Of a stretch of 64,000 nucleotides of DNA, positions 5,032-45,764 are shown one piece after another. Source of the DNA: Peristeroidobacter soli (GTDB lineage: Bacteria > Pseudomonadota > Gammaproteobacteria > Steroidobacterales > Steroidobacteraceae). The translations under genes and the position numbers were made by a program. A model generated the notes under the pieces. The model did no database searches, was not told the DNA's origin, and saw nothing but the letters and a program-made list of their open reading frames with translations. Each line of letters starts with the position of its first letter. Within the stretch, counting starts at the first letter, position 1. The stretch lies in assembly GCF_004138485.1 (NCBI RefSeq), contig NZ_RYEV01000008.1, forward strand, positions 1 through 64,000, in the 5' to 3' direction.

Positions 5032-8000
5032 ATGATCTCGGGATGGGGGCTCCTGGTCGCTTCACTGGCCTACGTATGTGGCCTGTTCTTCATTGCGTGG
5101 TGGGGCGACCGCCGTCGTTTCTATCCCGATAACGCGCGGCTGCGGCCGCTGATCTACAGCCTGGCGCTGGCGGTTTACTGTTCGAGCTGGACCTTCTATG
5201 GCGCGGTCGGCAGCGCCGTGCGCGACGGTCTGGGGTATCTGCCCATCTATATCGGGCCCATGCTGGTGTTCCTGTTCCTGCTGCCGTTCTTCGAGCGGCT
5301 GGTGCGCATGGCCAAGCAGCAGAACGCCACCTCCATCTCCGACCTGCTCGCCGCCCGTTTCGGCCGTTCACCGCAGATCGCGGTTGCGGTCACGCTGATC
5401 GCGCTGACGGCCGCGATCCCCTACATCGCCCTGCAATTGAAGGCCATCTCGATGAGCATCGAGGTGCTGTCGGCCGGCGCGCCGGCGCAGAGCGTGGCCT
5501 GGTATCGAGATAGCGCGTTGCTGGTCGCGTTGATGCTGGCCTTGTTTTCGAGTCTGTTCGGCGCGCGACAGGTCGATGCGACCGAGCATCACCCCGGCAT
5601 GGTGCTGGCGGTGGCCGCGGAGTCGTTGGTGAAGTTGGTGGCATTGCTGTGTGTCGCGGTGTTCGCGCTCACGCAGCTCGATGGCGTCGCGCCGTTGATC
5701 GAAACGGTGCGACAGATGCCGGCAGGCGTGGACCATTCCATTTCCTTCATCACCCAGACGCTGTTGTCGCTGACGGCCATTTTTTGTTTGCCCCGGCAGT
5801 TTCAGATCGGCGTGGTGGAGTGCGCCGATGTCGAGGACGTTCGACACGCGCGCTGGTGGTTCTCGATGTACCTGGTGCTGATCAGCGTGGTGGTCGTGCC
5901 CATCGCCGCGGCGGCCATCGCGGCCGGGGGTTCGGTCGCGCCGGATTCGTTCTTGCTGTGGCTGCCGCTCAGTGCCGGACACGATTGGCTGGCGTTGCTC
6001 GCGTATCTCGGCGGCTTCTCGGCGGCGACCGGCATGGTCATCGTCGCGACCGTCGCGCTGGCCACAATGGTCAGCAACGATCTGGTGCTGCCAGTGATCT
6101 GGCGCTGGCGGCCGCCGTCGCTGGGCGATCGCAGCCTGGCGTCGGGCGGCATTCTTTGGATCCGGCGCGCCGCCATTCTGGTCATCCTGCTGGTCGCTTT
6201 CGCGTTTTTCCGGGTGGTGCCGAATGGTTCGAGTCTCGCGTCCATCGGCTTGCTGGCATTCGCAGCCGTCGCGCAGTTCGCGCCCGCCGTCGTCAGTGCC
6301 GTGTATTGGTCGGGCGCGAGTCGAGCCGGAGTGCTTGCCGGGCTGTGCGGAGGATTTTTGATTTGGGTCTACACGCTGTTGTTGCCGACCTTCGCAGGTG
6401 CGGACGGCATGATGCCCTCGTGGATCACGGCCGGGCCGTTCGGCATCGGCGTGCTCGCGCCTCATTCCTTATTGGGATTCGCCGGACCCGACGCGCTCAC
6501 TCACGGCGTGTTCTGGTCGCTGCTCGTGAACATTGCGACGCTGGTGGGGGTGTCGTTGTACTCGCCGCCGGCCATCGGCGAGCGATTGCAGCTTGCGCCG
6601 CGTATCGCGGGCGCCGATGCGCGTCGAGCGAAGTTGTTGCCAGGTTCGGCGACGATTGCCGACCTGCAAATGCTCGCCGAGCGGCTGCTCGGACCGGTCG
6701 CGGCACGCTCCTGGTTCGAGCGTTATAAACAGGAACACGAGCGCGACTACTCGCCGACTCAGCGCGCCGATGTTGGATTGTTACAAGGCCTGGAGCGTGA
6801 GCTCGCGGGTGCGCTCGGCGCAGCGTCCGCGCGCATGGTGTTGACCAGCGCACTTCGAGGCGCCGGCCTGCAATTCAGCGAAGTCGTCACGCTGTTCGAC
6901 GAGGCGTCGCAGAAGCTGCGCTTCAACCGCGAAATGCTCGAAGCCATGATGGAGAACATGCCGCAGGGGATCAGCGTCGTCGACGCGGAAATGCGCCTGG
7001 TGGCTTGGAATCGTCGCTACGTCGAGTTGCTCGACTATCCGCCGGAGCTGATGCGGGCCGGTCGGCCCATTGCCGATCTGATGAGATACAACGCCGCGCG
7101 TGGCTGGTACGGGCCGGGCGATGCTGAGACGCATGTCGAGAAGCGGCTGGCTCACATGCGCGCGGGCTCACCCCATCTGTCCGAACGACGGCGCGGCGAC
7201 GGTCGTGTGATCGAAGTGCGTGGGCAGCCGCTGCCTGACGGCGGTTACGTCAGCACCTTCAACGACGTGACGACTTACAAACACGTCGAAGACGAGCTGC
7301 GCGAAATCAACGAAACATTGGAACAACGCGTCGTCGAACGAACCCAGCAATTGGCCGAAGCGACGGCGGTGGCGGAGAAGGCCAACCTGGGCAAGACGCG
7401 TTTCCTGGCGGCGGCCAGCCATGACTTGTTACAACCGTTGAATGCCGCGCGCCTGTTCAACGCGGCCCTGCGCGGTCAGGCGAATCAGTTGGCGCACCCG
7501 CAGGTCGTGCAGTTGGCCGATCGAGTGGAGAACTCGCTGCACGCAGCCGAAGAGTTGCTCGACGGTCTGCTCGATATCTCGCGGCTGGACTCGGGCGCGA
7601 TTCAGCCGGAGCTGTGTGATTTCTCCGCCGGTACGTTGTTGGACTCGCTGAGAGAACAATTCGCACCGGTAGCCGCGCAGCGGAATCTCGAATTGCGAGT
7701 GCATTCGACCCGCGTGCAGGTGTTCACCGATCAGCGGATGCTGCGTCGGGTGTTACAGAACTTGATCAGCAACGCTTTGCGTTACACACGCAGCGGGCGG
7801 GTCGTCGTCGGCGTTCGTCGCCGGGCAGATGGGCAAGTCGAGTTTCAAGTGATGGATACGGGCCCGGGCATCGCCGCTGAAAGTCAGAGTGTGATCTTCG
7901 AAGAGTTCCGACGGCTCGACCAGCAGTCGCCTTGGGGAGAGCGCGGTCTCGGCCTGGGCTTGTCCATCTGCGATCGTATCGTTCACATTCTGCAGACCCG

Positions 8001-35727: not shown

Positions 35728-36183
35728 TCAGTTGCTCGAGCTGTCGGTGGCCGGGGCGTCTTTACCGCCGCGGTCATGTTTGCCGAAGCCACGACCGGGG
35801 CCCGGGCCGAAACCGGGGCCACGCTCGTGCAGGGCGTCGAATTTCTTGAGCTGCGTTTCATCCAGCACCGCACTGAGCTTGGTGTGCAGTTCCTGTTTCG
35901 CCTGCTCACGCTTGGCCTTCATCTCATCGCGCGATGGGCGGGCGGTGCCGGCGGCACGCGCAGCTTCGAATTCAGAGCGCATCTGTTCGTGCTGTTCCTT
36001 CAGGATCTTCTCGACTTCGGTCTTCTGATACGCGTTCAGGTCGAGCAGCAGCGCCAGCCGGTCCATGTCCGGACCCGGGGCGACCCGCGCGGGCGCGGGA
36101 GTGGTCGCCGTCGTCGTGTCGGCGGCAAATGCCACGCCGCTGGCAAGCCAGGCAAGCGCAAGCAGGGTGACTTTGGTTTTCAT
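35728..36183 (-). CDS. Spy/CpxP-like periplasmic LTXXQ protein
   Basis: About 151 residues from the ATG at 36183. It has a signal peptide (cut near AFAAD), then a Met/Leu helical bundle (DRLALLLDLNAYQKTEVEKI) and an ETQLKKFDAL segment, the LTXXQ-type repeat of Spy and CpxP. A Gly/Pro/Phe-rich tail (FGPGPGRGFG) follows. Such proteins act as ATP-free periplasmic chaperones or dampen an envelope-stress sensor. The OmpR/EnvZ-type pair upstream on the same strand makes a Cpx-like feedback loop plausible. Confidence 0.8.
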   Translation of the reverse strand: MKTKVTLLALAWLASGVAFAADTTTATTPAPARVAPGPDMDRLALLLDLNAYQKTEVEKILKEQHEQMRSEFEAARAAGTARPSRDEMKAKREQAKQELHTKLSAVLDETQLKKFDALHERGPGFGPGPGRGFGKHDRGGKDAPATDSSSN

Positions 36184-36274
36184 CACAGTCTCTCCGTTAG
36201 GGGTGAAGTTGTGTCCTTTCGGCTCGAGACCTGAGAACACGCTTGCAGAATAAGTCGCCCGGAACGCCAGCGCG

Positions 36275-36291
36275 GTAATCAATAGTTACCA
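36275..36291. promoter_or_regulatory. Operator-like dyad before the Spy-like gene
   Basis: GGTAA-N7-TTACC, containing AATAGTTAC (36282-36290). The same nonamer occurs upstream of the response-regulator gene on the other strand (38559 to 38551). It sits about 90-108 bases upstream of the Spy-like start. Possible binding site of the adjacent regulator. Confidence 0.35.
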
Positions 36292-36319: not shown

Positions 36320-37729
36320 TCAGTGACTTGTGGCTTCGCGGGGCAGTATCAGCCGGGCCTCCAGGCCGCCCTCCTGACGATTGTGGAGAGAGAGTGAACC
36401 GCCATGCGCCTGGGCGATGTCCCGCGCGATGCTCAGGCCCAGACCGGTGCCGCCGGTGTCCCGGTTGCGCGATTGTTCGAGACGAAAGAAGGGCTCGAAC
36501 ACTTTCTCCAGCATGTCCTCGGGAATGCCCGGGCCTTCGTCCTGGACGCGCAGCACGAGCTTTGGACCGTCATCGATTTCGATGGTGGCGCGCACGCCGT
36601 GACGGATCGCGTTCTGTACCAGATTGCTCAGACAGCGCTTCAACGCGAGCGGTTTGGCGACGTAGGGCGCTCGTGCCGTGCCGACGACGGTGACTTCGCC
36701 GCCCAGTTCCTGATATTGCCGCTGCAGTTCCAGCGCGAGCGCATTGATGTCGACGGGTACTGCCGCTTCGTCGTCGTTCAGCCCGCGAAACACGCCGAGC
36801 GCGCCCCGGATCATGTTCGACATCTCATCCAGATCTTCCACCAGATGTTGGCGCAGCTGATCGTCGTCGATGGATTCGACACGCAGTCGCAGTCGAGTCA
36901 GCGGCGTGCGCAAGTCATGTGACATCGCGGCCAGCACTCGAGTGCGGCTGTCGAGATAGCGCCGCAAGCGCTCCTGCATGGCGTTGAATGCTCTCGTGGC
37001 ACGACGAATTTCTCGTGCGCCGCTTTCCTTCAATGGCGTTCCGGTCGCGCCACGGCCGACGGCGTCGGCAGCGCGAGCGAGATCGCCGAGCGGACGAGTG
37101 ATCGTGCGAGCCACTGCATAGAGCACGATGCCCAGCGCCAGAGCGAGGAAGCCGAGCTCGAAGAAAATCTGTCGCGGCAAACGAGGGCCCAGGCGAGGCG
37201 CGATGGTGCGAAAGACCGCTTTGTCGCCATCCGGCAAGGTCACGGTGACGTCGAAGACCCGATCACGACGCGGCATCATGTTCGGTGGCGGCGGACCGGG
37301 CGGCGGCTCGTTCTGACGGAAGATGAACAGCGGAATGACTTCACCGCGACGGGCTCGCGGCGGACCGGTCGATACTTTGTATTGCGAGCCGAGCTGACGT
37401 TGCAGGTGAGCGGCGTACTGACGTTCCAGCGCGGCCTGCTCTGCATCCTGCATGCGTGGAGGAGGCGGGCGAACGTCGTCGGGTGAGATGCGCTGCTCGC
37501 GCAGTTTCAGACGCGCATCGTCGCGCGCTTCCATCGACAGTCCCGCCAGGTACTGGCTCGTTTCGGCGATGGTGTTCGCCGAGCTGCCAGCGCCGCTGTC
37601 GAGCAGCGCCAACTCGCGCCGCTCGCGCACGATCAGCAGAATGAACACGATCAGCATGGCGCCGATCACCGCCACTGTTGCCAGGAACAGGCGTCCAAAC
37701 AGCGTGTCCGGCAGCAGCGGACGGGCCAT
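36320..37729 (-). CDS. EnvZ/CpxA-type sensor histidine kinase
   Basis: Protein of 469 residues. Membrane helix 1 (about 12-34), a Pro/Arg-rich periplasmic sensor (about 35-180), helix 2 (about 190-210) and HAMP (about 210-265) come first. HisKA follows with the phospho-acceptor in AMSHDLRTPLTRL, then HATPase with the N box NLVQNAIRH and the GTGLGLSI lid. Its start overlaps the regulator stop by one base (TAATG), so translation is coupled. Together with the regulator and the Spy-like gene it looks like an envelope-stress or cation-responsive system. Confidence 0.92.
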   Translation of the reverse strand: MARPLLPDTLFGRLFLATVAVIGAMLIVFILLIVRERRELALLDSGAGSSANTIAETSQYLAGLSMEARDDARLKLREQRISPDDVRPPPPRMQDAEQAALERQYAAHLQRQLGSQYKVSTGPPRARRGEVIPLFIFRQNEPPPGPPPPNMMPRRDRVFDVTVTLPDGDKAVFRTIAPRLGPRLPRQIFFELGFLALALGIVLYAVARTITRPLGDLARAADAVGRGATGTPLKESGAREIRRATRAFNAMQERLRRYLDSRTRVLAAMSHDLRTPLTRLRLRVESIDDDQLRQHLVEDLDEMSNMIRGALGVFRGLNDDEAAVPVDINALALELQRQYQELGGEVTVVGTARAPYVAKPLALKRCLSNLVQNAIRHGVRATIEIDDGPKLVLRVQDEGPGIPEDMLEKVFEPFFRLEQSRNRDTGGTGLGLSIARDIAQAHGGSLSLHNRQEGGLEARLILPREATSH

Positions 37730-38448
37730 TATTCCTGCTCGACGGGCACGCCCATCACATAGCCTTCGCCGTAGATCGTCTTGATGATTTTTGGCGAGCG
37801 CGCGTCGTCGCGCAGGACCTGACGCAGCCGGCTGATGCGTACGTCGACGCTGCGATCGAAGGGATCGATGTCACGGCCACGCAGCAGTTCCATCAGCTGC
37901 GAGCGCGACAGCACTCTCGTGGGATGTGCCAGCAGAATGGAGAGCAGGCGAAACTCGGCGCCGCTGAGCGCGTGCTGAGAGCCGTCGACATGCGTGAGGG
38001 AACGGGCAGTGACATCGAGTTGCCAGTCGCCGAAGCGATAGATGTTCACCGTGCTCTGCACGGGATCGCGCGGCATGTGCGCCGTCCGTCGCAGGATGGC
38101 TTTGATTCTTCCCACCAGCTCGCGCGGACTGAACGGCTTCGACAGGTAATCGTCGGCGCCGACCTCCAGGCCCACGACCCGGTCGATTTCCTCGCCCAGC
38201 GCGGTGAGCATCAGAATCGGAATCTGGGACTGGGCGCGCAGCTCGCGGGTGAGTTTCAGCCCGTCTTCGCCCGGCAGCATCAGGTCGAGCACGATCAGGT
38301 CGACGTGCGATTGCTCGAGCGCGCGGCGCATGGCTTTGCCATCGGCCACCGCGGTGGCGCGATAACCGTTCTTCTGCAGGTAATCGCCCAGCAGCGTGCG
38401 TATTTCGCGATCGTCGTCGACGATCAGGATATGGCGAGAGTCGGTCAT
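37729..38448 (-). CDS. OmpR/PhoB-family response regulator
   Basis: Protein of 239 residues. The receiver domain has the acidic IVDDD cluster, phospho-Asp in LIVLDLMLPG, and the KPF Lys switch. The C-terminal winged helix (about 140-235) has RVLSRSQLMELLRG and SVDVRISRLRQVL. It is the cognate partner of the overlapping histidine kinase. A candidate self-regulatory motif (AATAGTTAC on the minus strand at 38551-38559) lies about 105 bases upstream of its start. Confidence 0.93.
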   Translation of the reverse strand: MTDSRHILIVDDDREIRTLLGDYLQKNGYRATAVADGKAMRRALEQSHVDLIVLDLMLPGEDGLKLTRELRAQSQIPILMLTALGEEIDRVVGLEVGADDYLSKPFSPRELVGRIKAILRRTAHMPRDPVQSTVNIYRFGDWQLDVTARSLTHVDGSQHALSGAEFRLLSILLAHPTRVLSRSQLMELLRGRDIDPFDRSVDVRISRLRQVLRDDARSPKIIKTIYGEGYVMGVPVEQE

Positions 38449-38550
38449 GGGATCACGTCGGGGGCCCGATTCGCATCATGACCAATGACTGCTGAACGCG
38501 CCCGCGATTATTGTAACCAAGTGTTGCGCCGGAGCGAGCCGCAACAGTGC

Positions 38551-38559
38551 GTAACTATT
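38551..38559 (-). promoter_or_regulatory. Second copy of AATAGTTAC motif
   Basis: On the minus strand this reads TTAATAGTTAC about 105 bases before the response-regulator start. It matches the motif in the dyad before the Spy-like gene. Two copies only, so the link is tentative. Confidence 0.3.
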
Positions 38560-38572
38560 AATGACGCGTGAT

Positions 38573-38666
38573 CCGGGCATCCTGCCCGGCCCCGCGTGGC
38601 GAGTCGGCAAAAGGCGTGACTTTTGCCTCTCGCCCGCCGCCCATGGCGGCGGGTACATCCATGTAC
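38573..38666. repeat. Cluster of four consecutive perfect hairpins
   Basis: Stems at 38573-38589 (7 bp, 3-base loop), 38606-38627 (GGCAAAAG/CTTTTGCC, 6-base loop), 38633-38653 (CCCGCCGCC/GGCGGCGGG, 3-base loop) and 38653-38666 (GTACAT/ATGTAC). They occupy most of the 248-base gap between the GGDEF gene end and the regulator start. The array resembles a dispersed extragenic palindromic element. The GGDEF transcript would end here. Confidence 0.45.
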
Positions 38667-38696
38667 CTGGGGTGGTAGTAGTTGATTTGGGTTTAT

Positions 38697-40544
38697 TCAG
38701 GCGTGGCCGACGTTACGCAGTTCGTCGTTGACGGGCGGATCCGGGCGCTCCTGGGGAATCGTCTTGCCGTCGTAGGGCATGACGCGATCGCGGCCGGCGG
38801 CCTTGGCTCGATACAGCGCCGCGTCGGCATGCGCCAATAGCTGCCGCAGTTCGTAACCCGACACCTCGGTCGACGTGACTCCGAAACTGCTGGACACCTG
38901 GCAGCGCTCGCCTTGGTAAGTCAGATCGATCGCATGCAACGCCACGCGCAGTCGCTCGGCGCGTTGTTTCGCATCCTCCAGGCCGCAGCCCGGCAGCACG
39001 ACGCCAAACTCTTCACCGCCGACGCGTCCGAAAATGTCACTGACGCGCAAATGACTCTGACAGGCGATTACCGCCTGGCGCAGCACATGATCGCCGGCGG
39101 CATGACCGAACCGATCGTTGATGGCTTTGAAATGATCCAGGTCGCACAGGACCACGCTGGCCTGCTGTTGCGACTTGCGCGCGGTCTCGAGCACGGTTTC
39201 GGCGAGCTGGATGAAACGCGGCCGGTTGGAGATGCCGGTCAAGCCGTCCACTTGCGACAGCTTCATGAAATGCAGCTGCGAGCGCTTGGTGCGATAAGCC
39301 CACAGCGCGATGAACACCACGACCAGCATCAGCAGCGCGATATACAGCCGGCTGGTCTCGGCGGCCTTGCCGTCGAGCTGGCGCTGCAGCTGCAGCAGTT
39401 TGTTTTCCTGATTGAGCGCTTCGAGCTGCGACTTGGTCGACATCGTGTTCGATTTCACGCGCTCGTAGGCGAGCTGGCGCGCGGTTACGTCGTCGAGATA
39501 AGCCTTATCCGCGGCGGCGGATTTCTTCAAATAAGCGATGGCGTTGGCAATGTCGCCATGTTTCTCCGCTTCTTCGTAGAGCACGCGATAAGCGCCGATC
39601 AGCGGCGGCGTGAATTGATCCTTGACGGCATGGTCGACGGCACGCAGCGCCATGCGCTGCGCGTTGACTCCCGAACCGCGCAGCTGATATGCGCGGGCCA
39701 TCAACGATTCCCACTCCGAGATACCGCGCGGATAGCGCGATTGCTCGACCTCGCTATAGTGTTTCTCGAGCACGTCGATGGCGTCGTCGTAACGCTGCTC
39801 GCGAAGGAGCAGATGAGCCTGCGTGGTGCGGATGGCGTTGGCGGCCAGCGATTCGCCCTGTTGCAAACAGGCGTTGATGGCGGCCGGCAGCGAAGGATCG
39901 TCCGCCTTGATCCGCTTGCTCTTGCACATGGCGTCGAGACGGATCTGCTCGCCCCGGCACACGCCGCGGCCACGCGCATTTTCCTTGACGACCAGCTGGG
40001 CGTAGTGAATGCCCAGATCGTACTCGCCCACCAGCGTATAGAGATCGGCGGCGACGGACATGCCCTGCAGGCGGGCGTCCTTGTCGGTCACCTCGGGCAA
40101 TTTGTTCAACAGCTTGTTGAGTTGCAGGAACGCGCCTTCGTACTGCGTGGACAAGGCGCGGACATTCGTGGCGGTCGACCCGGCACGGAATTGCAATGTC
40201 GGATCGCTCGCGCTGTCGACGAGCGACTCCAGCAAGGGAATGGCTTTGGCGTAGTCGCCGGAATAAGCGAAGCGCCAGCCTTGCAGGTACTGCAGGTGTT
40301 CGCGCTGTTGCGCCGACAGCTCGCCGAGCTGCGCGTGCAGTTGATCGATCAGCCGGGTGAATTCGACGGGATCGACGCTCTTGATCGCGTCCGCCCGTTG
40401 CAACATGGCGGCAACCTCTTCGGCATCGGCCGCCGCGAGCAGGGGCTCGCCCGCGAACAGGCAAAGAGAGGCGATTCCGCCCAACAGCCAACGCCGGGCG
40501 GAATCCTTGCTGACACGTCGTTGCTCAGCTCGCCCGGGCGACAC
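38697..40544 (-). CDS. Helical-repeat-sensor diguanylate cyclase (GGDEF)
   Basis: About 615 residues from the GTG at 40544. Longer in-frame starts lie deep in the precursor gene, and the tempting Val nearer the signal is GTC, not a start. A signal-anchor (WLLGGIASLCLFAGEPLLAA) is followed by a periplasmic region of TPR-like helices (about 45-340), a coiled coil, a membrane helix (LYIALLMLVVVFIALWAY) and GGDEF. The active loop reads GGEEF, so it should make cyclic di-GMP. Its start overlaps the borosin precursor gene by 20 bases, which predicts translational coupling and a shared transcript. Confidence 0.85.
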   Translation of the reverse strand: MSPGRAEQRRVSKDSARRWLLGGIASLCLFAGEPLLAAADAEEVAAMLQRADAIKSVDPVEFTRLIDQLHAQLGELSAQQREHLQYLQGWRFAYSGDYAKAIPLLESLVDSASDPTLQFRAGSTATNVRALSTQYEGAFLQLNKLLNKLPEVTDKDARLQGMSVAADLYTLVGEYDLGIHYAQLVVKENARGRGVCRGEQIRLDAMCKSKRIKADDPSLPAAINACLQQGESLAANAIRTTQAHLLLREQRYDDAIDVLEKHYSEVEQSRYPRGISEWESLMARAYQLRGSGVNAQRMALRAVDHAVKDQFTPPLIGAYRVLYEEAEKHGDIANAIAYLKKSAAADKAYLDDVTARQLAYERVKSNTMSTKSQLEALNQENKLLQLQRQLDGKAAETSRLYIALLMLVVVFIALWAYRTKRSQLHFMKLSQVDGLTGISNRPRFIQLAETVLETARKSQQQASVVLCDLDHFKAINDRFGHAAGDHVLRQAVIACQSHLRVSDIFGRVGGEEFGVVLPGCGLEDAKQRAERLRVALHAIDLTYQGERCQVSSSFGVTSTEVSGYELRQLLAHADAALYRAKAAGRDRVMPYDGKTIPQERPDPPVNDELRNVGHA

Positions 40545-40824
40545 GGTTATCGGCACCTGCCAGGGCCGACGAGTGGACACGCTTGTCATCCTCGGGCTCG
40601 TCTTCCTCGGGTTCCTCGTCCTGGGGCGCGTGGACGAGGCAGCAGACATTGTGGCTGGCGCCGAGCAGCTCCTCGAGCTGACGGGGGCGCTGCTGCACGA
40701 TGGCTGCCTGCACGGCCGGCGCGACGCCCGCCTGTGCCAGTTCCTGCGCCAACTGCTCGCCGGTCAGCGATTGCAGCCGCGAGCTCTGACCCATTCTCTC
40801 CAACAGATCCACGACATTGGACAC
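40525..40824 (-). CDS. Split-borosin precursor peptide (SonA-like)
   Basis: Protein of 99 residues. A strong AAAGGAGGAG precedes the GTG start. Residues 1-55 (starting MSNVVDLLERMGQSSRLQ) are helical and resemble the borosin binding domain of Shewanella SonA, including the xxDFFxxLGQDAQL-like opening and the closing helix RQLEELLGA. The likely core HNVCCLVHAP (58-67) follows, where SonA has its methylated hydrophobic stretch. A run of acidic residues (68-80) and a basic follower end it. The partner methyltransferase is encoded upstream on the same strand. Identification is by remembered resemblance and context, not by a search. Confidence 0.75.
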   Translation of the reverse strand: MSNVVDLLERMGQSSRLQSLTGEQLAQELAQAGVAPAVQAAIVQQRPRQLEELLGASHNVCCLVHAPQDEEPEEDEPEDDKRVHSSALAGADNRVARAS

Positions 40825-41030
40825 GATGCGCTCCTCCTTTCCCCGATTGTTTGTTGGGTACGACCGCTGCCCCGTGCAGCAGGAGTTGTAACAAGCCTAG
40901 GACAATCGCCGCGGGCGGGCTCTCGAACGATCCACAGAAAAACTGACGCCGGCGGTGACAGCCCGACTTAACAGAATTATGCCTGTTTCGAAGCCAACGA
41001 GGCGGACAGAAAGGGAGAGTCGGCGCGGTC

Positions 41031-41573
41031 CTACCGCGCATTCCAAAAGGCGGAGGGTGGCGACCACGATCCGCGCTGAACCGACCAGGCATTCCCTTGC
41101 CCATCCGCGGCCTGGCCACGGCGTGCAAAGCCTACGCTAAGCACAGCCCGCTGCACAGCCAGATGGTCGGTGGCGAACTGCACCCATAATTCATCCACCG
41201 GCAACTGTGCGAACACTTGCTGGATCAGCCCGGTGAAGCCCTCCTTGGAATAGCCTTTGGCGCGCGCCGCCTCGACGAACATCACGCCGGCCTGCACGCT
41301 GCGCTCGCTGGCGTCCAGGTCTTGCAGGCTGCAAATTCCGACATCCGTTTGTGACGCCTTTTCCACCACGGTAAGAAACAGCCGCTCGATGGGCCGGCGT
41401 TGCATACCGGCGAGCGCGCTTCGAAAACTTCGGGCGGCACGTTCGGGCGCGAGCGGCGCACCAATGAAACGCATGGTCTCGGCGTCCGTATACAGATGCT
41501 CATACAGGGGCGCGTCGTCGGCGACGATGGGGCGCATGCGCAGCCGGGCCGTCTCGACTGGAAATACGTGCAC
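41031..41573 (-). CDS. GNAT-family acetyltransferase in the borosin locus
   Basis: Protein of 180 residues from the GTG at 41573. It is a RimJ/RimL-like N-acetyltransferase fold: the opening VETARLRMRPIVADDAPLYEHL, the central GVMFVEAARAKGYSKEGF acetyl-CoA pocket and the late strand ELWVQFATDHLAVQRAVLSVGF. The start lies 11 bases past the methyltransferase stop, so the two are co-expressed. It could acetylate the matured peptide or an unrelated target; the sequence cannot decide. The gap of 206 bases to the precursor gene holds no other gene. Confidence 0.8.
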   Translation of the reverse strand: MHVFPVETARLRMRPIVADDAPLYEHLYTDAETMRFIGAPLAPERAARSFRSALAGMQRRPIERLFLTVVEKASQTDVGICSLQDLDASERSVQAGVMFVEAARAKGYSKEGFTGLIQQVFAQLPVDELWVQFATDHLAVQRAVLSVGFARRGQAADGQGNAWSVQRGSWSPPSAFWNAR

Positions 41574-41584
41574 GGTGCCGTCGC

Positions 41585-42391
41585 TCAGCCTTGAGCGGCC
41601 AGCCCCAGATCGCGATCGAGCGCGGACAGACGCTCGCGAGTGTGATGATCGGGTTGCAATGGTTGTGCCGGCGGAATCACCAAGGTGAAGTGCATGTCCG
41701 CCTCGGCCGCGGGCAATTCGCCCAGCGGCACGCGAATGATCCTGGGGCGGAAAGTGGGCAACGTCGCCGCCTGATACAGGATCACTTCATGGTCCAGGGG
41801 ATAGTCGCGACTCAAAACATCGACCAGCACCTGTCGATACGCGGCGCCGGTGGAAAAACGGGTCAACGACTGATCGCCCGACAGCCCCACCTGCCACAGA
41901 ATCAGATACGCGGCGGTATCCAGTCGCCGCCGGTTGAACATGAACTGACTGGCTTCGTAATGCTGGCAGCCGTACTTGCCGGGATCGAAGCCCAGGTCGG
42001 CATACATGCAATCGGCCGCCGATACGCCCGGCTCCATGTGCGCGCAGTAACCCTCGCTGCGCGCGATCTCGATGGCCTTGTGCGTCGGCCAGGCGAACAC
42101 GCCAGGATGACCGTAGAAAGCGGCGCATACGCGTTTGCCTGCGCGGACTTCAGTCAGCATGGTGTCCACCATCTCGCGGTAGGTGTCCATGCGCGACTTC
42201 CCTTCGCGATACAGCGTCTGCAGGCTGCGCACGTCGCTGTTCATGCGTGCGATCCACATCTCGATGATGCCGTCGGACAGCCCGGTGAACACCACGTCGG
42301 CGTTCTGAATGTAATCGCGCGCCAGCGGAGTGAGGTGCGCTCCCAGGGTCATGCCGATCCCGACGCACACCAAACTTCCTGCTGGTTTCAT
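41585..42391 (-). CDS. Split-borosin peptide backbone N-methyltransferase (SonM-like)
   Basis: Protein of 268 residues of the tetrapyrrole-methylase fold, using S-adenosylmethionine. It starts GSLVCVGIGMTLGAHL and contains YGHPGVFAWPTHKAI and MEPGVSAADCMYADLGFDPG, with FEASQFMF-like YEASQFMFN, as in Shewanella SonM. Candidate catalytic residues Tyr61, Arg67, Tyr71 and Tyr93 keep the spacing of the borosin enzyme OphMA (Y66, R72, Y76, Y98, from memory). It would methylate backbone amides of the precursor encoded 0.8 kb downstream. A cobalamin-pathway role is unlikely: no other such genes are present. It lies 17 bases after maiA. Confidence 0.85.
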   Translation of the reverse strand: MKPAGSLVCVGIGMTLGAHLTPLARDYIQNADVVFTGLSDGIIEMWIARMNSDVRSLQTLYREGKSRMDTYREMVDTMLTEVRAGKRVCAAFYGHPGVFAWPTHKAIEIARSEGYCAHMEPGVSAADCMYADLGFDPGKYGCQHYEASQFMFNRRRLDTAAYLILWQVGLSGDQSLTRFSTGAAYRQVLVDVLSRDYPLDHEVILYQAATLPTFRPRIIRVPLGELPAAEADMHFTLVIPPAQPLQPDHHTRERLSALDRDLGLAAQG

Positions 42392-42408
42392 GAGGGTTGC
42401 TCTGAGGT

Positions 42409-43047
42409 TTATTTTGCGTCGGGCTGGACTTCCGGCCGGGCGCTGTCGAATGCGGGCAACGATTCCAGGTGCGTGGCGATGGCGACCAGGGTCGGGAACG
42501 GCGTGAGGTCGCAGTTGAAACGCCGCGCGTTATACATCTGCGGCACCAGGCACACGTCGGCCAGCGACAGACTGTCACCGAAGCAATGGCGACGCGCGCT
42601 GGAATGTTTCGCGACCTGCAGCTCCAGCCCTCGGAAACCCTCACCGATCCAATGTCGATACCAGGTATTCACGCCGTCGTCGTTCTGTGCCAGATCCTGT
42701 CGCAGGTAGTTCAGCACGCGGAGGTTGTTCAGTGGATGAATGTCGCAGGCGATCGCGAGCGCCATCGATCGCACCTGCGCGCGCGCCAGCGGATCGGCTG
42801 GCAGCAGCGGCGGCTGCGGATGCAGATCATTGAGGTATTCAATGATGGCGAGCGATTGTGAGAGCACCGTGCCGTCGACTTCGAGCGCCGGAATCAGGCC
42901 TTGCGGATTTACGGCCAGATAGTCGGCCGCGCGTTGCTCATTCTTGATCAGCGCTTTGGAAACGTAGTCGCAGGTGAGTCCCTTGAGATTCAGCGCGATG
43001 CGCACCCGGAATGCCGCCGAGCTGCGAAAGTAGTTGTAGAGCTTCAT
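42409..43047 (-). CDS. maiA: Zeta-class GST: maleylacetoacetate/maleylpyruvate isomerase
   Basis: Protein of 212 residues. The zeta GST signature SSAAFRVRIALNLKGL with the catalytic Ser-Ser pair lies near residues 9-10, followed by NPQGLIPAL and SQSLAIIEYL. The enzyme uses glutathione to isomerise the cis double bond of maleyl intermediates in tyrosine/homogentisate or gentisate breakdown. The 4-base overlap with the FAH-family gene upstream makes a two-enzyme unit, similar to NagL/NagK. The ring-cleaving dioxygenase is not in the window. Confidence 0.88.
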   Translation of the reverse strand: MKLYNYFRSSAAFRVRIALNLKGLTCDYVSKALIKNEQRAADYLAVNPQGLIPALEVDGTVLSQSLAIIEYLNDLHPQPPLLPADPLARAQVRSMALAIACDIHPLNNLRVLNYLRQDLAQNDDGVNTWYRHWIGEGFRGLELQVAKHSSARRHCFGDSLSLADVCLVPQMYNARRFNCDLTPFPTLVAIATHLESLPAFDSARPEVQPDAK

Positions 43048-43754: not shown

Positions 43755-44543
43755 CTAGGATACTCCGACGATCATTTGCTCCACCACCCAGCGCTTGAGC
43801 AAGCCGGCGGCCTGCGCGGGCACAGCCTCGGCGTCGTGCCAGTTGCACAGCACGTCGCAGAGCATTTCGAACGAGCCGCCGCCACGCATGACTGCCAATG
43901 CCGCGCTCTCGTCCGGCGACAGTGAGCGGTACTGAGTCTTGAGCTGTTCGCGCCAGATCAGCCACGACTGCGGCTGCTCGAGGGCGACGGGTTCGGGCGG
44001 CGGCTCATCCGCCGATAGCGCTTTGAACAATAGCGGCGCGTTGGTGTGCATCGCCAGCACTTGCACCGTCGGATGAAACTGAAACGTCAGCGACGGCCAT
44101 TGCTCGGGTGCGACGGCGGCCAGCGCCTCGATGCCAACGGCTTGGGCATCTGCGCCATCGAAAGCGGCGGCGATGGCCCATTCCCAGGCGGCCAGCCCGG
44201 CCAGCCAGGGTTGATCGGGAAACAATTTCGTCAGCAGTGCCGGCAACTGGTCGCCGAACCAGCGAATCGATGGATGGCTCGACGGGCACAGCTCGATGTA
44301 CTCGCTCGCCACCGCGGCGAACTGTTCTTCGCCGAGCAGCTGTTGCAGGCGGGGCAGCGTGCTCGCCAGCGCGTCGGTCAGGCGCAGTCGATACGCTTCG
44401 GAATAGATGCTCAGGCGTAGTGTCGCGGGCACGGCCGCTGAGCCATCGACCGCATCGACGATGCGGTCGTGACCATGCATGACGTGGCGCTGAAAATCCC
44501 GCTGCAGTTCGGCCAGCGAGTGCGCGTCGGATTGAGCACTCAT
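43755..44543 (-). CDS. bufC: BufC/HvfC family protein (DUF2063), RiPP partner of MNIO enzyme
   Basis: Protein of 262 residues from the ATG at 44543. The N-terminal helical DUF2063 domain (about 10-110) has LQRDFQRHVMHG, RLSIYSEAYRLRLTDAL and the SIRWFGDQLP segment. The C-terminal half (about 120-260) resembles a winged-helix/peptide-recognition domain with FEMLCDVL. Proteins of this family bind DUF692 enzymes and present the precursor. The 4-base overlap with bufB (ATGA) fits this. Confidence 0.88.
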   Translation of the reverse strand: MSAQSDAHSLAELQRDFQRHVMHGHDRIVDAVDGSAAVPATLRLSIYSEAYRLRLTDALASTLPRLQQLLGEEQFAAVASEYIELCPSSHPSIRWFGDQLPALLTKLFPDQPWLAGLAAWEWAIAAAFDGADAQAVGIEALAAVAPEQWPSLTFQFHPTVQVLAMHTNAPLLFKALSADEPPPEPVALEQPQSWLIWREQLKTQYRSLSPDESAALAVMRGGGSFEMLCDVLCNWHDAEAVPAQAAGLLKRWVVEQMIVGVS

Positions 44544-45391
44544 GCGGCGGACTTCGACTTCTGAGCTGACGTCGTGATGTCGCGCGCGCGGGCCAGCTCC
44601 GCCAGCAACACGTCCAGCTCGGGAATGTTGTCGTCGCGCTCGATCATGGTCGATACCGGGCCGAAGCGCTCGACGGCAGCGTGAAACAACTCCCACACCG
44701 CTTCGCAGACCGGTTCGTCGTGCGTGTCGATGAGATAGTCGCCCATGTTGCGATGGCCGGCGAGATGGAACTGCTGAACGCGCTCCACCGGGATGCCGCG
44801 CAGATACGTCATCGGATCGAAATTGTGATTCACGCTGCTGACGTAGACGTTGTTCACATCGAGCAGCAGGTGACAATCGGCGCGCTCGGCGATTTCGCGC
44901 AGGAATTCCCACTCGGTCAGGTCCGAGCGGCTGAAGTTCACGTAGCTCGACACGTTTTCCAGCACCAGCCGGCGGCCGAGCCGTTCCTGAACGGCGGCGA
45001 TGCGCGAAACCACGTGGTTCAGCGTGGGCTCGGTGAAGGGCAGCGGCATCAGGTCGTGCAGGTTCACGCCGTCGACGCCGGTCCAGCACAGATGATCGGA
45101 AATCCAGGCCGGCTCGACGCGGTCGGCCAGCGCTTTCACCTCGCGCAGGTACGTTTCATTGAGCGGGTCGGTGCTGCCGATGGACAGCGACACGCCATGG
45201 AGCACGATCGGGTACTCGGTGCGCAGCCGTTCCAGATAATGCAGCGGCTTGCCGCCGGGGAGCAGATAGTTCTCGGTCAGCGCTTCGAGCCAGCCGACGC
45301 TGCCTTTGCGCTCGCCGAGCAGGGCGTCGTAGTGAATCGGGCGGACGCCGAGCCCGAAGCCGAGCGACGGATGAGGGGACGATTTGGGCAC
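44540..45391 (-). CDS. bufB: BufB MNIO enzyme (DUF692), multinuclear iron peptide oxidase
   Basis: Protein of 283 residues with a TIM-barrel DUF692 fold. Metal-ligand segments are visible in order: LHGVSLSIGS, WISDHLCW, LENVSSYV, LLLDVNNVYVSS with NHNFDP, FHLAGH and IDTHDEPV. MNIO enzymes use two or three non-heme irons and O2 to convert precursor cysteines; bufferin enzymes form thiooxazole groups that bind copper. The precursor gene is 90 bases upstream, separated by a hairpin. No DoxX-type BufD gene is adjacent. Confidence 0.92.
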   Translation of the reverse strand: MPKSSPHPSLGFGLGVRPIHYDALLGERKGSVGWLEALTENYLLPGGKPLHYLERLRTEYPIVLHGVSLSIGSTDPLNETYLREVKALADRVEPAWISDHLCWTGVDGVNLHDLMPLPFTEPTLNHVVSRIAAVQERLGRRLVLENVSSYVNFSRSDLTEWEFLREIAERADCHLLLDVNNVYVSSVNHNFDPMTYLRGIPVERVQQFHLAGHRNMGDYLIDTHDEPVCEAVWELFHAAVERFGPVSTMIERDDNIPELDVLLAELARARDITTSAQKSKSAA

Positions 45392-45418
45392 TGAACACTC
45401 GTGGGCTGATCAGGAAAC

Positions 45419-45447
45419 GGCGCGGTGAGCCGACGCAAGACCGCGCC
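45419..45447 (-). terminator. Attenuator-like hairpin between bufA and bufB
   Basis: GGCGCGGT pairs with ACCGCGCC across a 13-base loop in the 90-base gap after the precursor. No T-run follows. A partial terminator or RNA-stabilising stem here would let the precursor be made in excess over its enzymes. Confidence 0.5.
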
Positions 45448-45481
45448 GCCCTGACCCTATCAGACCGGGCCTGGAGCTGAA

Positions 45482-45739
45482 TTATTTCTTCAGCTTGGCC
45501 TTGGCGGCGTCGCAGTCGGCCTTGCTCAGCATCAGGAATCCCGTGCCCTTGCAGGCATTCTTGCCGGCGCAGGAATTGGCCGAGGTGGCACAGGCGGTCG
45601 TGCCCTTGCACGAGTTCACGCCTTCGCATTTCACCTTGGCTTCATCCGCCGCGTTGGCGGCGGTCAGCGGCGCGGTGCTGAACATGACAGCGGCCGCCGT
45701 CGCCAGAGCCAGAGTAGAGAATTTCTTGCCGTGGGTCAT
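45482..45739 (-). CDS. bufA2: BufA2-type bufferin precursor (Cys-rich periplasmic metallophore)
   Basis: About 85 residues from the ATG at 45739, which has GAGGA at a proper distance; the ATG at 45748 abuts that site. It has a Sec signal peptide (cut near ANAAD) and six Cys at about 38, 44, 50, 57, 63 and 76. They lie in repeated CEGVNSCKG and CAGKNACKG units, then GFLMLSKADC, typical of BufA2-type precursors. After modification by BufB/BufC the exported peptide is expected to bind copper in the periplasm. The final KLKK is basic. Confidence 0.85.
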   Translation of the reverse strand: MTHGKKFSTLALATAAAVMFSTAPLTAANAADEAKVKCEGVNSCKGTTACATSANSCAGKNACKGTGFLMLSKADCDAAKAKLKK

Positions 45740-45764
45740 CGATGCCATTCCTCACTGGAAAAGT

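Follow-up and report, generated by a model that had tools for sequence, protein, structure and literature searches.

The closest described relatives of the genes considered here are SonM and SonA of Shewanella oneidensis, a type IV (split) borosin system in which the methyltransferase and a precursor with a borosin binding domain (BBD) are separate proteins. According to the available part of the study describing them (PMC8429565), Y58, R67, Y71 and Y93 of SonM are active-site residues examined by mutation, SonA is methylated at L63 and I65, and no type IV pathway had yet been linked to a final natural product; GGDEF, the domain of diguanylate cyclases, is not mentioned in that part of the text. 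It does appear among the borosin architectures named in the Figure 1 legend of a second article, which was likewise available in part (PMC11395268). In the literature searched, no paper was found that combines borosins with cyclic di-GMP (c-di-GMP) or with tetratricopeptide, and one combines them with histidine kinase; the GGDEF link may nevertheless have been noticed before.

The DNA analysed here, referred to as the window, is a stretch of 64,000 nucleotides (positions 1 to 64,000 of contig NZ_RYEV01000008.1) from the 9.37 Mb genome of Peristeroidobacter soli. Computation shows that it carries on its minus strand, in this order, a SonM-family methyltransferase, a GNAT acetyltransferase, a BBD precursor and a receptor that combines a tetratricopeptide repeat (TPR) sensor with a GGDEF domain. 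Its sequence identifies the locus as an operon of the split (type IV) borosin kind, and it is somewhat probable that the methylated core of the precursor serves as the ligand of the adjacent receptor and feeds c-di-GMP signalling.

The methyltransferase and its separate precursor

The methyltransferase (268 aa, 41585..42391, minus strand) has the SonM chains (7LTC) as its best match in the PDB (E=2.5e-76), followed by the fused fungal borosins dbOphM, MroMA and OphA (E=2e-50 to 6e-45), and the four active-site residues of SonM align with its Y61, R67, Y71 and Y93, all four being kept. An initial annotation, made from the letters alone, had placed on one strand a borosin N-methyltransferase with a Tyr/Arg/Tyr/Tyr set and a small precursor; both open reading frames (ORFs) are present at the coordinates it gave, on the minus strand, and the comparison with SonM and OphMA that it proposed returned these, rather than corrin methylases, as the best matches. 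Three marks of a type IV split borosin are found in this locus: a discrete borosin-family alpha-N-methyltransferase, the catalytic Tyr/Arg/Tyr/Tyr residues, and a separate precursor with an N-terminal BBD, the last recognized through a 56-sequence profile.

The precursor (99 aa, 40525..40824, minus strand) starts at a GTG preceded by AAGGAGGAG, which is Shine-Dalgarno-like. Its likeness to SonA, also foreseen in the initial annotation, emerges only with a broad alignment: SonA was not found with a single precursor sequence as query, and a 9-sequence profile reached it at E=0.22, which is not significant, while a 56-sequence profile from which SonA had been left out found it at E=5.4e-6 over residues 1-65 and ungapped, the top seven rows of that search all being SonA constructs. 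Under a wider profile the score of SonA 1-59 was 28.6 bits, and none of 1000 shuffled versions of this segment exceeded 7.7. The BBD, or leader, is assigned to precursor residues 1-56 (40657..40824), and the profile register puts L63-V64-H65 on L63-V64-I65 of SonA, within the predicted core SHNVCCLVHAPQD (residues 57-69, 40618..40656), on which methylation would be expected. The remainder is an acid-rich follower (residues 70-99, 40528..40617).

Named genomes gave 432 loci, of which the best 80 were kept; since they were ranked by likeness to the window, they come mainly from Steroidobacter, Rhodanobacter and Dyella relatives, the most similar methyltransferases being those of loci named Steroidobacter agaridevorans, Peristeroidobacter agariperforans and Steroidobacter gossypii. 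Precursor and receptor both lie on the methyltransferase strand in 78 of the 80, and in the two loci without them the contig ends at the methyltransferase gene or within it. In five close species the ratio of nonsynonymous to synonymous polymorphism (pN/pS) is 0.10 for core codons 57-69 and 0.29 for BBD codons 1-56, making the core the best-conserved segment of the precursor; these low values indicate a real gene and, with the conservation in 78/80 loci, rule out a chance ORF. The predicted split-borosin pair is borne out by its sequence, by the active-site residues, by the profile of the binding domain and by the conserved co-occurrence, and on such comparisons the borosin membership of the locus is close to certain.

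The 78 loci yielded 114 precursor hits. CC occurs in the core of 43/105 precursors (those of at least 75 aa), and among the 100 relatives that reach 85 aa, 84 exceed 25% D/E after residue 66. Variants include duplicated cores (L071), repeated C-terminal units (L082) and the lysine-rich tails of L021 (uncultured Steroidobacter) and L022 (Povalibacter uvarum), which replace the short acid-rich follower in loci where methyltransferase and GNAT form one ORF. In Luteibacter sp. dw_328, seven BBD precursor ORFs stand between one methyltransferase and one receptor (L087:6450-9102). A further precursor (L173, within 5362-6831, minus strand) has about ten DAAIIKGYA repeats after the BBD; it is a multi-core borosin precursor, and no receptor appears in the gene listing of its region.

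Between methyltransferase and precursor lies the GNAT gene (180 aa, 41031..41573, minus strand; PF13302, 73.9 bits, cut-off 25.4), separated from the former by 11 nt. A GNAT was found in 23/80 loci, fused to the methyltransferase in two (L039, L046). The borosin pair of the initial annotation thus stands, but its split-borosin reading was incomplete because the GNAT gene, the TPR/GGDEF receptor and the acid-rich follower had been overlooked; the overlooked neighbours point to a function.

The receptor and its association with the precursor

The receptor gene (38697..40544, minus strand) is taken to start at the GTG at 40544, where it overlaps the last codons of the precursor and where close homologs also start; the longest ORF begins at 40649. 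Its product has a signal-like N terminus, a TPR sensor module of 350 residues (39381..40430), a single transmembrane helix by hydropathy, and a GGDEF domain (PF00990, 144.6 bits) with an RxxD site and with GGEEF, the active-site motif expected of a diguanylate cyclase. The topology suggested by these features would place the sensor in the periplasm. Its predicted structure is a TPR solenoid (predicted local distance difference test, pLDDT, 91.1; predicted TM-score, pTM, 0.86) whose first Foldseek match is a Rap pheromone receptor, with NprR among the high matches and further matches to AimR and many other TPR proteins. At the sequence level, a sensor profile run against the PDB gave a designed protein as best match (5e-5), then TTC29 (4e-4) and RapF (0.0076).

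At the laxer threshold of E=1e-3 a cyclase was found in 79/80 of the close loci, that of L104 being a different gene on the opposite strand. Some relatives carry a histidine kinase in place of GGDEF: Pfam assigned 21 of 25 receptors to GGDEF and 4 to HisKA. The sensor profile finds all 27 GGDEF-type proteins tested (E<1e-18), and the four kinase-type receptors at 2e-31 to 4e-3, or at 1e-21 or better once it had been widened with GGDEF-type sensors. The window sensor stretch carries an invariant cysteine pair (C158/C188), and such a pair, 28 to 30 residues apart, is present in 27/27 GGDEF-type and 1/4 kinase-type sensors; the profile and cysteine comparisons did not include the receptors of L162 and L171.

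The sensor, searched with the GGDEF domain excluded, occurs in 11 of 98 genomes, including that of the window, all of one genus and in single copy, and is present in all nine genomes whose methyltransferase is at least 66% identical. Two genomes have a sensor and no methyltransferase, one of which (G005) breaks off within the precursor directly upstream of the receptor. In the family of genome G461, the methyltransferase is present in 62/97 genomes and the sensor in the identical 62; a sensor lies within 6 kb of 83/85 methyltransferases, and a methyltransferase within 6 kb of 98/124 sensors. The remaining 26 sensors comprise one in a methyltransferase cluster and 25 spread over 24 regions, and in 17 of these 24 a precursor immediately precedes the sensor while the fetched stretch has no methyltransferase. 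What stays constant is thus the pair of precursor and receptor; this pairing away from the methyltransferase, like the strict co-occurrence in the sampled groups, comes directly from the computations.

Core and sensor also vary together. For 82 of 87 units, the other five being excluded because of gaps, a short precursor or a misread start, core distance and sensor distance correlate at r=0.77, with a partial correlation of 0.41 given GGDEF, methyltransferase and BBD (0 of 999 permutations). In nine multi-unit loci, 17/18 cores are nearer to the core of the most similar sensor elsewhere than to the core of their neighbour. The co-variation is partly linkage, since precursor and receptor adjoin and the BBD tracks the sensor as well.

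The arrangement extends to more distant groups. In the order of genome G442 (marine) the methyltransferase is present in 61/247 genomes; among 20 regions, one from each of 20 genomes and counted by eye, 18 have a receptor (16 GGDEF-type and two kinases), the others being L173, in which none was seen, and L175, which stops at a contig edge. The BBD was tagged in 15/20, and a GNAT was seen in 13, each confirmed by Pfam. In region L172 (4637-6278) two borosin-type methyltransferases lie side by side, and after them come an ORF of 132 aa and a TPR receptor of the kinase type. In a genus taken as Shewanella, because its methyltransferases are up to 98% identical to SonM, the gene occurs in 24/394 genomes. 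Methyltransferases still more distant often have no detectable BBD or receptor: of 11 such loci, the profile finds a BBD in three (L026, L121, L123) and has no match in the other eight (L025, L027, L028, L122, L124, L125, L126, L127); inspection by eye shows small BBD-like ORFs in L122 and L126. Distant methyltransferases were also found on 13 plasmid records.

As to the setting of the operon, no sigma-70 promoter was found in 38400-42700, and the same interval has five terminator-like sites against 3.2 expected. A bufferin-type MNIO operon of another ribosomally synthesized and post-translationally modified peptide (RiPP) adjoins the borosin locus at 43755-45748 (minus strand), with BufB (NF050167, 377.7 bits, cut-off 310), a BufA2 precursor (NF050166, 76.1, cut-off 60) and a DUF2063 protein, placing two RiPP systems within about 5 kb. 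Read from the translations, an apparent sensor histidine kinase and response regulator lie 3' of the receptor (36320-38448, minus strand), and a small Spy/CpxP-like protein at 35728-36282.

Possible roles of the peptide

From these associations we infer a pathway in which the core is methylated, released and exported, bound by the TPR sensor and read out as a change in c-di-GMP. Like SonM on SonA, the methyltransferase would dock on the N-terminal domain of its partner precursor; within the NVCCLVHAP core it would place one or a few N-methyl groups on the backbone, L63 being the first, in the N-to-C direction. Acylation of the peptide is the probable, though putative, task of the GNAT, and release of the core would fall to a protease that was not found at the locus. 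In the periplasm the TPR solenoid may then bind the methylated peptide, and the induced change would cross the single transmembrane helix to the GGDEF domain, altering c-di-GMP. More generally, receptor-type split borosins may be peptide-signalling systems, with N-methylated ribosomal ligands, periplasmic TPR sensors, c-di-GMP or phosphorelay output, and insulated precursor-receptor channels that duplicate and scatter while one methyltransferase serves them in trans, a generalization given slightly better than even chances.

Several observations weigh against such a role. The route to the periplasm is missing, as the precursor has no signal peptide visible by eye, and neither a transporter nor a protease was seen in the operon of the window. 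Lee et al. are said to have described, in 2024, shewasin-type pepsin homologs beside borosins; a pepsin-like protease (PF00026) does adjoin the operon in five marine relatives (five proteins tested), but the genome of the window has no match to the L161 query or to PF00026, and the protease is found in 0/15 genomes at or near the window with a probe that finds 4/4 positives. The sensor is missing in five of 14 methyltransferase genomes, those with enzymes 32-47% identical; no BBD gene is visible in 0.9 kb at the sensor of G004, the second genome with a sensor and no methyltransferase and a member of the genus of the window, nor in 7/24 of the methyltransferase-distant regions. Core sequence is not conserved between distant groups, and co-variation with the sensor is equally strong for BBD and core (partial 0.62 for the BBD). 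Three of four kinase-type receptors have no cysteine pair. The likeness to Rap is weakened because TPR solenoids resemble one another: the superposition is loose (TM 0.55, root-mean-square deviation 10.4 A), and APPBP2 and APC/C subunits outrank Rap in VIA. Finally, at L125:5928-6815 and L126:4535-5767, inspection by eye shows an ORF for an MFS-like transporter after a distant methyltransferase and reveals no receptor. Not all borosins fit the receptor pairing, therefore, and it is not claimed for the more distant ones, which lack a receptor.

The transporters of L125 and L126 would suit an ordinary borosin natural product, such as an antibiotic or metal binder, with the cyclase adjusting production or sensing something else, as would the diverse and partly Cys-rich precursor cores and the adjoining bufferin, a metal-linked RiPP. 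A regulator of production, however, would be expected beside the methyltransferase, and the receptor instead tracks the precursor away from it; tandem precursor-receptor units under one methyltransferase match by type across loci, and no conserved exporter was noticed at receptor-type loci, for which no systematic search was made. Production of a conventional natural product is a minority possibility, at perhaps the level of a serious outsider. It is distinctly improbable that the precursor acts uncleaved as a regulatory partner of the receptor, methylation locking the core and the whole BBD protein serving as the switch. The operon's want of protease and exporter, the acid-rich tails (lysine-rich in two relatives) and the equal co-variation of BBD and sensor speak for such a switch, but the sensor is predicted to be periplasmic while the precursor has no signal sequence, and cores or C-terminal units are repeated in L071, L082 and L173, such repeats being typical of released peptides. 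That the enzyme is a cobalamin or siroheme (tetrapyrrole) methylase beside an unrelated small ORF has a negligible chance, as the shared fold family PF00590, the sole Pfam match of the enzyme, is set against NCBIfam models far under their cut-offs (YabN best, 43 vs 525 bits; cobJ-type 19 vs 391), the SonM match with its retained active-site residues and the conserved precursor gene.

If the methylated core is indeed a ligand of the neighbouring receptor, SonM-SonA, structurally the best studied system, would gain a function, several gammaproteobacterial groups would have a RiPP peptide-signalling system that feeds c-di-GMP, and backbone methylation would be a way to a stable signal. The pairing of precursor and receptor makes bacterial borosin function directly testable, with the methylated core set against the neighbouring cyclase.

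Comparison with known systems

With SonM/SonA the window shares the separate methyltransferase and BBD precursor, the active-site residues and the L63 register, and in 10/10 orthologous loci read in the SonM-like genus SonM, SonA and a GGDEF receptor gene 3' of SonA follow in order. The two methyltransferases are 48% identical. The window precursor differs from SonA in its CC core and long acid-rich follower, and the operon in its GNAT, for which phmmer with the window protein found no counterpart in the 10 SonM-SonA loci.

The receptors of the RRNPP family (Rap, NprR, AimR) similarly have a TPR solenoid encoded beside a small peptide gene. They are cytoplasmic and bind imported, unmodified peptides. 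The receptor of the window is not assigned to this family, with its cytoplasmic location and DNA-binding or phosphatase output, because it has a signal-like N terminus, a transmembrane helix and a GGDEF domain, and the common TPR fold is no proof of common descent. Unlike the RRNPP receptors, the sensor of the window is predicted to be periplasmic and is tied to a GGDEF domain, or to a kinase in relatives, and the peptide encoded beside it is predicted to be N-methylated.

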